Origin: Candidatus Anammoximicrobium sp.
GTDB lineage: Bacteria; Planctomycetota; Planctomycetia; Pirellulales; Pirellulaceae
NCBI GenBank assembly: GCA_012515235.1
Contig: JAAYYU010000124.1
Location: 62,001 to 126,000, forward strand
Length of the DNA: 64,000 nt
Reading direction: 5' to 3'
How positions within the stretch are numbered: position 1 is the first letter of the stretch; each line of letters opens with the position of its first letter. This document shows, one piece after another, positions 26,615 through 28,873 of the stretch. A model generated the notes under the pieces. The model did no database searches. It saw nothing but the letters and a program-made list of their open reading frames with translations, and had not been told where the DNA came from. The translations under genes were made by a program, and so were the position numbers.

Positions 26615-26821
26615 TCATTCTCCCGCGAACACCATCGCCCCAATTCGCCCATTGCCCAGCGGCAGCGACTGTTGGAACGTCCGCGCCGGCCTGTCAAACC
26701 AAAGCGCAGCAGTGGGATCGGCCGCTCCGGCCGCCATCGGCGGAGCCAGCATGAAGGCAAAGCTCAGGACTAGGCCGGCGAACCAATGCCGTTGCCATGC
26801 AGTAAGCGAGTTCGACCTCAT
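26615..26821 (-). pseudogene. GH95 alpha-L-fucosidase N-terminal remnant (68 codons)
   Basis: A signal peptide (WFAGLVLSFAFMLAPPMAAGA) is followed by LWFDRPARTFQQSLPLGNGR and IGAMVFAG, closely matching the beginning of glycoside hydrolase family 95 proteins. The frame ends at a TGA right after this, with some 700 residues of the usual enzyme missing; the cytochrome gene begins 80 bp on. This is the promoter-proximal stub of a deleted fucosidase gene. A functional small protein is unlikely. Family recognition is from memory of the motif. Confidence 0.7.
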
Positions 26822-27012: not shown

Positions 27013-27087
27013 CCGGTGCTGTTCCGGCTGGTAGAATGAATGCAGAAGGAAACTTCCGTTATTCGAGTTCGGGAGTCGATCGTGTCC

Positions 27088-27339
27088 ATGATTGCGTCTG
27101 TCCCAGCAAGTAATCGGGAATTAGCCGAGCGGATCAACGCGGAGGCTCGGCGAGATCCGCATTCGCCGTACGCCGGCAAGTTCGTGGGCATCGCCAATGG
27201 CCATGTGGTGGCGGTGGCCGACAGCTGGCGCGAGGTCTCCCGGCGATTGCGGCAAGTGGAGCCCGATCCGGGCAAGTGCTGCTGTATCGAGGCCAGCGCC
27301 GATTACGATGCAGTCCATGAGGTTTGGAGCGTCCCCTAA
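27088..27339 (+). CDS. DUF5678-like small protein (83 aa)
   Basis: The sequence SPYAGKFVGIANGHVVAVADSW followed by a REVSRRLRQVEPDPGKCCCIEAS segment resembles the DUF5678 type of small protein (a compact alpha/beta fold of unknown role). The start is uncertain: ATG 27088 gives MIASVPASNRELAERINAEA, which looks like a natural N-terminus; ATG 27040 would add 16 residues. Its TAA stop overlaps the next ATG (TAATG), so the two are translationally coupled. It lies in an accessory stretch of broken genes. It could be the regulatory or antitoxin-like partner of the following protease-like protein, but this is speculative. Confidence 0.6.
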   Translation: MIASVPASNRELAERINAEARRDPHSPYAGKFVGIANGHVVAVADSWREVSRRLRQVEPDPGKCCCIEASADYDAVHEVWSVP

Positions 27340-27749
27340 TGCCCCTTGCCGAGTGGTCACTGTACGCCGATCGGCCCATCCTGGAAATCGTGCTGGCCCT
27401 CGCGGCAGGCGGTGCCGGTCTTTCGCGCCATCTGGTTGCCGACACCGGTGCCGGTTCGCGCCGTGATGTGTTCGAGCTGATACTCGACGAGGACGATTGC
27501 CTCCAGTGCGGTGGGATCCCGATTCATGAGGTCCGTCTGAGCGGCGCATACCGCGGATCGTTCCCCGTTTATCTCGTGGACGTGCGCATTCCCGCCTTGT
27601 CGTTCGACGACTCGGTGCCCGTGGTCGGGGTATCGAGCGTCCCGCGTGGCTCTGACGGCATTGCGTGTTTCAACTTCCTCCGCCGCTTCAACTACGGCAA
27701 CTTCGGGAATCCCGATGGTTTCGGTCTTGATCCGCTGCCGCAAGGATAG
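27339..27749 (+). CDS. Retropepsin-like aspartic protease candidate (136 aa)
   Basis: A single DTG motif preceded by hydrophobic residues (SRHLVADTGAGS, about residues 30-41) and a C-terminal GIACFNFLRRFNYGNFGN resemble one lobe of retroviral-type aspartic proteases, which act as homodimers with one Asp from each chain. There is no signal peptide or membrane helix, so it is cytoplasmic. It starts within the stop of the DUF5678-like gene. The C-terminus continues (PDGFGLDPLPQG) to TAG at 27747. I know of no function for such pairs. The protease assignment rests on the DTG context and could be wrong if the flap is absent. Confidence 0.55.
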   Translation: MPLAEWSLYADRPILEIVLALAAGGAGLSRHLVADTGAGSRRDVFELILDEDDCLQCGGIPIHEVRLSGAYRGSFPVYLVDVRIPALSFDDSVPVVGVSSVPRGSDGIACFNFLRRFNYGNFGNPDGFGLDPLPQG

Positions 27750-27766
27750 GCGAAGCCGCGGGGATG

Positions 27767-27785
27767 CCCACGGCTCGCCCGTGGG
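27767..27785. repeat. Palindrome CCCACGG-N5-CCGTGGG, copy 1
   Basis: Perfect 7-bp stem with loop CTCGC, 18 bp after the retropepsin-like gene. Same arms as the copy at 27907. Confidence 0.65.
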
Positions 27786-27836
27786 AGCCTCACGTTCGTC
27801 GCTACAGTCGGACGCGCCGACCAGGAACCGCACGAT

Positions 27837-27855
27837 CCCACGGACAAGCCGGGGG
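27837..27855. repeat. Palindrome CCCACGG-N5-CCGGGGG, copy 2
   Basis: Same left arm and loop position as its neighbours, with one mismatch in the right arm and loop ACAAG. It lies 70 bp from copy 1 and 70 bp from copy 3. Confidence 0.55.
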
Positions 27856-27906
27856 CATTCGGGAGAGGCGGCGGAGGTGGCGGGGAGTAGCGCCGAGCGT
27901 AACCAT

Positions 27907-27925
27907 CCCACGGGCAAGCCGTGGG
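27907..27925. repeat. Palindrome CCCACGG-N5-CCGTGGG, copy 3
   Basis: Perfect 7-bp stem with loop GCAAG; the flanking AT/GGAT extends it weakly. The three copies have start positions exactly 70 bp apart. Confidence 0.65.
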
Positions 27926-28124
27926 GATTGGCGAGCGGCGGGAGGGGCTCCTCGGTCATGTATTCGGGCTCGAGTTCGTCGGCGATACCCGCTACTTGTA
28001 GAAGAGACCGGCGGGCATGTACACTTTCGGCTTGGTTGCACGCTGCTGCTGGATGCGGAAGTTCACGAACGCCGGGTTCGAAGGAGGCTGAACCTGGGCT
28101 TCGGAGAACGGAAGGAGCAGGTGA

Positions 28125-28873
28125 ATGGCTGAGATTACGTTCAGGAATGCCTACTACATCAAGCTTGGACGTGGTGGGATGTGGGAGGAGAACGCAATCG
28201 AAACGGGTAAACTCCGTCTCGGGTGGCGTGAGACCACAATCGAGGACATCAACGCGGGGAACGGGAAAACTATCCACCGGCAAATCCGAAGGGAGTTGAA
28301 GGGGAAGCCCGTGGGAGTCGTTACAGCTGACCTCAACGCTTTGCGACGAATCGTAGAATCTGACTTCGATGACCTGTGGGTGACGTTTCACCAGAACACT
28401 ATCCAGATCTGCTGCTACGCACCTTGAACGGCACACAGAGCCAATTTGCTGCATCCATACGAGACTGCCGTGCCACGCTGGCACAGCACCTGGCCGAAGC
28501 CATCAAAGAGCTTCACTGGAAAGACTTTGAAACACTGGTCGATCTGGTCTTTCGCGCAGCGGGCTGGATTCGCGTCAGCGTCCTCGGCCAGCATGCGAAG
28601 GGGTTGGATCTGGAACTGGTCGAGCCCATAATGGGCGATCGCTACGTCGTCCAGGTAAAATCGTGTGCCGGATTGTCGGATGTACTTTCAACCGCCGAGC
28701 AATTCTCACGACACGAGTACCGCCGAGTCTTTTTCGTCGTCCACACCCCCGATACGAGTATCACAAACGCAACGAAGATCCCAAAGCACGTCGAACTAGT
28801 CCCACCAGAACGACTCGCAGACCTTGCTGCCAATGCCGGACTGACCGGATGGATTGAGGACAAAGTTTCGTAA
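28125..28873 (+). pseudogene. Mrr-like restriction endonuclease gene split across two frames
   Basis: The first segment (28125-28427, ATG with AGGAGCAGGTGA upstream) encodes a 100-aa N-terminal domain (MAEITFRNAYYIKLGRGGMW ... FDDLWVTFHQ). The second (28376-28873, another frame) encodes LRTLNGTQSQFA, KELHWKDFETLVDLVFRAAGW, KGLDLELVEP and YVVQVKS: a PD-(D/E)xK nuclease core of the Mrr/restriction-endonuclease type, with the Asp and the Q-x-K catalytic residues present. As I recall, intact relatives join these parts through a middle segment of roughly 70 residues. That segment is missing here, so an internal deletion with frameshift is inferred near 28390-28410. No slippery sequence suggests programmed frameshifting. 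Confidence 0.6.

Follow-up and report, generated by a model that had tools for sequence, protein, structure and literature searches.

We propose, at roughly even odds (about 0.5), that a protein of the Pfam family DUF5678 serves a retropepsin-like protease effector as its dedicated, antitoxin-like regulator, and that the two overlapping genes encoding them form one module. The window, by which we mean the whole stretch of 64,000 nucleotides that was analysed, comes from contig C57 of a 9.67-Mb Planctomycetota-type genome and carries one such pair, P0001 and P0002 (Table 1). A first-pass annotation had described two small genes that overlap by TAATG, the second with a DTG in the context LVADTGAGS and a C-terminal GIACFNFL stretch, and each of these features was recovered, at residues 32-40 and 107-114 of P0002 for the two motifs. 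The hydrophobic context that accompanies a catalytic DTG is likewise present (LVADTGA, residues 32-38). The stop/start overlap makes translational coupling of the two genes likely. An in-frame ATG at 27040 provides an alternative start for P0001, which would then comprise 99 aa.

Table 1. Features of the window pair and its immediate surroundings (positions in the window)
Feature	Position	Strand	Basis or remark
P0001, DUF5678 protein, 83 aa	27088..27339	+	ATG 27088, stop TAA 27337-27339
P0002, retropepsin-like protein, 136 aa	27339..27749	+	ATG 27339, stop 27747-27749; DTG, C-terminal pattern, operon with DUF5678
TAATG stop/start overlap of P0001/P0002	27337..27341	+	sequence
Candidate catalytic DTG, Asp35-Thr36-Gly37 of P0002	27441..27449	+	sequence; Asp35 codon 27441-27443; Asp invariant in 16 partner proteins
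GIACFNFL, P0002 residues 107-114	27657..27680	+	aligns with the conserved motif LLG(R/x)(D/N)xL
Mrr-like restriction gene, two overlapping frames	28125-28873		Mrr_cat 2e-6 on 28376-28870
Truncated glycoside hydrolase gene, 67-aa fragment	26615-26821	-	Glyco_hyd_65N_2, first 28 positions only, 1.8e-9
Palindromic repeat (CCCACGGGCAAGCCGTGGG type), 42-nt inverted arms	27764-27945		directly behind the pair

The assignment of the first protein to DUF5678 was confirmed, with P0001 scoring above the curated cut-off of PF18929 (E 2.7e-5, 24.4 bits against 23.2 bits). Its structural model (pLDDT 78.5) has the order helix-strand-strand-helix-strand, and its best viral fold matches are pandoravirus proteins of the DUF5678 family (TM 0.59-0.67, E ~0.005-0.01). 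BFVD lists such pandoravirus proteins as entries A0A2U7UD66 and A0A2U7UG46. A PDB fold search with the model returned no match (best E 0.53), neither Pfam nor that search revealed a DNA-binding fold in P0001, and DUF5678 contains no recognised DNA-binding or inhibitor domain. A DNA-binding domain is not common to all type II antitoxins. P0001 is a member of a family to which no function is attached, and the literature searched does not mention its pairing with a retropepsin.

To place the pair, 392 Planctomycetota genomes were searched with PF18929, and the neighbourhoods of all sites found were read. The family occurs at 38 sites in 24 of these genomes (~6%); apart from G000, none of the eight genomes sampled from the same family contained it. 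At 24 of the 38 sites an intact retropepsin-like ORF lies directly downstream on the same strand, mostly overlapping or a few bases away, and in these pairs the small partner comes first. Two further sites (L012, L030) encode DUF5678 and retropepsin as single-ORF fusions, which Pfam confirms (for L012, PF18929 1.8e-8 and PF13650 2.6e-10), and six have an intact DUF5678 followed by a retropepsin that is disrupted or cut short (L005, L031, L167, L143, L009, L011). An adjacent, fused or broken retropepsin therefore accompanies about 30-32 of the 38 sites in this sample. The remaining six show no retropepsin trace (L006, L014, L017, L018, L022, L026), with L018 lying where its contig ends. Three DUF5678 copies are present in the window genome itself, namely the window pair, an intact pair (L019, contig C245) and a copy with a protease that lacks its central part (L143, contig C192). 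We conclude that DUF5678 and the retropepsin form a genuine conserved module: the pair recurs as intact, fused and broken versions, and the rarity of co-occurrence that would speak against the pairing was not found. A genome-wide scan with the partner protein of L020 found only itself, and because of this the survey beyond Planctomycetota is limited. At L018 (G382:C250), DUF5678 carries a C-terminal extension and adjoins nucleotidyltransferase-like and CRISPR Csm-like genes, and its downstream gene is cut off.

A profile built from 16 DUF5678-linked partner proteins, with P0002 left out, matched the FIV protease (4e-8), the HIV-1 protease, Ddi1 and Rickettsia ApRick, which indicates that the partner family is, judged by its sequence profile, retropepsin. 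Like the retropepsins of clan AA (PF13650, PF13975, PF00077), these proteins carry a DTG and one catalytic Asp per short chain. In the alignment of the 16 partners, both the catalytic Asp and the Gly of the C-terminal motif are invariant; exceptions to the DTG are DCA in L020 and DSSAG in L066. The L020 / L033 partner, in which DCAAD replaces DTGAD and the LLGRDVLN motif is intact, is perhaps a non-catalytic binder. Short retropepsins of another class (DSGATYSLLP...VTLExLGLxLxPF; L089, L090, L098, L099, L103) occur in several copies per genome and have no overlapping small partner.

The earlier description of the second window protein as retropepsin-like stands on its motifs and its operon, but P0002 has no significant match of its own. 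It matched nothing in Pfam, NCBIfam, PADLOC or the PDB, the partner profile aligned by hhalign with its first third only (E 0.005-0.009, probability <8%), and an AlphaFold model from a six-sequence alignment was uninformative (pLDDT 42.7). P0002 is thus classed as retropepsin-like by motif (the DTG and a C-terminal GIACFNFLRRF pattern) and operon, and not by statistics. It also differs from retropepsins in the C-terminal motif (LLGRD or IIGRN), whose conserved Gly is missing both from P0002 and from its relative at L034; Cys110 of P0002, within GIACFNFL, stands at the position where the other partners have an invariant Gly. Because the same IACF occurs in L034, it is not a sequencing slip in P0002, and it is ancestral in the P0002/L034 branch. 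The motif Gly is the counterpart of Gly86 of HIV-1 protease, which is needed for activity. With Cys in place of this conserved psi-loop Gly, the copy in the window may have weak catalytic activity, and might bind but cleave poorly.

We also compared how often each half of the module is lost. The protease is broken or gone at 12 of the 38 DUF5678 sites, and of the 25 best sites for the retropepsin a single one (L066) has an intact protease gene without DUF5678 (Fisher p 0.01), a comparison that involves a small sample, a retropepsin profile made from DUF5678-linked proteins and a protease gene about twice as long as its partner. The other orphan retropepsin, at L067, is itself frameshifted. Such lopsided loss of the protease would be the pattern expected of a toxin and its antitoxin, within the limits of a small sample. 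At L005, L031, L034, L143, L167, L009 and L011, separate events (frameshifts, truncations or internal deletions) have disrupted the retropepsin next to an intact DUF5678. The breaks in L005, L031 and L067 fall at similar places, and we considered programmed frameshifting; the alignment resolved them into three different indels at different points, and this idea was rejected.

Starting from the computed pairing, overlap, fusions, mobility, partner homology and preferential protease loss, we infer a course of events whose predicted elements are the binding and inhibition of the protease, its trigger, its target and its toxicity. The DUF5678 protein would be translated first, with the second gene coupled to it through the stop/start overlap, and would bind and restrain the retropepsin-like protein, as an antitoxin or a propeptide-like inhibitor does its enzyme. 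The retropepsin-like protein would act as a symmetric dimer, to which each chain contributes one catalytic Asp. Removal or loosening of DUF5678 by some signal would free the protease, which might then cleave a protein of the cell or of a phage. The cassette itself travels between genomes and phages and readily loses its protease half.

This arrangement resembles type II toxin-antitoxin systems in that two small, overlapping, co-directional genes stand with the regulator first, are patchily distributed (24/392 genomes) and mobile (four phage contigs), and lose the effector more often than the regulator. The literature searched contains no retropepsin toxin and no paper that joins a retropepsin with an antitoxin or with prokaryotic gene neighbourhoods. 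To our knowledge, few prokaryotic toxin-antitoxin effectors are proteases, and most bacterial retropepsins have no known role. The suggestion in the first-pass annotation of a toxin-antitoxin-like or regulatory module holds as far as the anatomy, which fits either a toxin-antitoxin-like or a regulated effector, the recurrence of the pair and the retropepsin character of the partner family are concerned.

The main rival, which we regard as rather improbable, is a non-toxic regulated protease, for which DUF5678 would serve as an adaptor or activator that brings in substrates or signals, for example from a two-component system, and whose loss would be ordinary decay. Response-regulator receivers are fused to DUF5678 at L165, which has a retropepsin-like gene downstream, and at L017, which adjoins a histidine-kinase-like gene. 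Because of these fusions, the gene architecture suggests that DUF5678 may carry a signal to the protease. The fusions of DUF5678 to retropepsin would suit an adaptor as well, and the six sites without a retropepsin also favour this explanation. In contrast, the patchy distribution, the carriage by phages and the repeated loss of the protease are unlike a housekeeping processing enzyme.

We also consider it unlikely that the pair in the window is now a functionless remnant in decay, although several of its surroundings and relatives are in decay. The first-pass annotation had placed the pair among broken restriction-type genes, and a broken Mrr-like gene is indeed present nearby; this is one gene only, split over two frames and apparently frameshifted or deleted. 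The GH65-like gene upstream is broken too, as are the two nearest relatives of the pair. The closest, L034, comes from a genome within the same family and has an intact DUF5678 and a broken retropepsin, and both genes are broken in L035. The replacement of Gly by Cys in the psi-loop motif would also be consistent with decay. However, both window frames are open, and comparison of P0001 with the DUF5678 of L034 over 83 codons gave a dN of 0.27, a dS of 1.76 and a dN/dS of 0.16, which indicates that P0001 is under purifying selection. Changes at the C-terminus of P0002 are biased toward synonymous ones, with 3, 3 and 14 differences from L034 at first, second and third positions of the 25 comparable codons. 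The broken retropepsin fragments of L034 retain LVADTGAG and DGIACFRFLRRFNYGNF. Because of this dN/dS pattern and the motifs kept in the fragments, the window pair is more than a chance arrangement, with both frames derived from selected genes. The flanks compared showed no synteny with L034; the sole match was a short stretch at a distance of 12 kb. Stretches similar to the palindrome behind the pair lie at ~25 other places of the same genome, as in a dispersed REP-like element.

Related pairs led us to weigh an anti-phage (abortive infection) or phage-versus-phage module, in which infection would release the protease and a phage or host protein would be cut. At L072, the small partner upstream of a short retropepsin matches the PADLOC model PDC-M52A (4.4e-7), and the locus also matches PDC-M52B (2.4e-35); the small partner of L088 belongs to both DUF5678 (4.8e-5) and PDC-M08A (7.8e-6). 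Relatives of the arrangement are thus already listed by PADLOC, as defence candidates without a published function. Like the window pair, these two-gene, unvalidated systems have a small first gene and an overlapping retropepsin-like second gene. Among the relatives, only L072 carries both the A and the B component, those of PDC-M52. Carriage by phages as cargo would also fit such a role. However, P0001 and P0002 match no PADLOC model, PDC-M08 and PDC-M52 included, and PMC12988326 describes candidates of this kind as not yet proved by experiment. Moreover, defence genes were not enriched near 20 chromosomal pairs relative to random loci of the same genomes (142 neighbour versus 146 control proteins; 47 versus 116 PADLOC families). 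We therefore judge an anti-phage role decidedly unlikely. The literature searched holds no description of PDC-M08 or PDC-M52 proteins and none of a function for DUF5678, which comes up there in a single unrelated paper; the earlier statement that no function had been described is correct to that extent, but related pairs were already on record as PADLOC candidates.

Short retropepsins also follow other overlapping small genes to which no family was assigned (L070/L077, L079, L083), and the small partners appear to be exchangeable between families. For the L070/L077 partner we considered an AbrB/AF2212-like identity, which remained a resemblance with no confirmation and was dropped. Extending the proposed regulator-effector module, we tentatively suggest, at somewhat less than even odds, a broad toxin-antitoxin or defence class with an aspartic protease effector of retrovirus type, inhibited by DUF5678 or by exchangeable partners such as PDC-M52A, in bacteria and temperate phages and in some genomes wired to a two-component receiver. 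With a retropepsin under the control of DUF5678, the kind of effector would be new, within a class that one database knows without a function. The recurrent two-gene cassette would offer a clean system in which to study protease targets and the control of a retropepsin by a protein of 70-80 residues, and a way to ask whether phages and hosts turn it on each other. For DUF5678, PDC-M08 and PDC-M52, too, there would then be a function to test.

The pair is present on four phage contigs of IMG/VR, in every case with a DUF5678 above the Pfam cut-off, and the stop/start junctions on phages read TGATG, TGATG, TAATG and TGAATG. The two that adjoin terminase or portal genes, L121 (between terminase and head-tail adaptor) and L122 (after a portal-head fusion), raise the idea of a retropepsin-type head-maturation protease that was domesticated in chromosomes; with a gap of 560 bp and a gene on the opposite strand next to L121, L123 beside an integrase and L124 on the strand opposite to all its neighbours, we rejected this idea on the variable phage position and leave it a very slim chance. 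Because that position is not fixed, the pair is better read as cargo than as a head protease, and its occurrence at four different places in four phage contigs speaks for mobile cargo. The DUF5678-linked proteins tried found no match on sequenced plasmids, nor did the DUF5678-linked partners tried in the plasmid and phage collections queried. The PDC-M52-type partner gave three cyanobacterial plasmid matches, and a Nostoc plasmid encodes a PDC-M52A small partner (6e-43).
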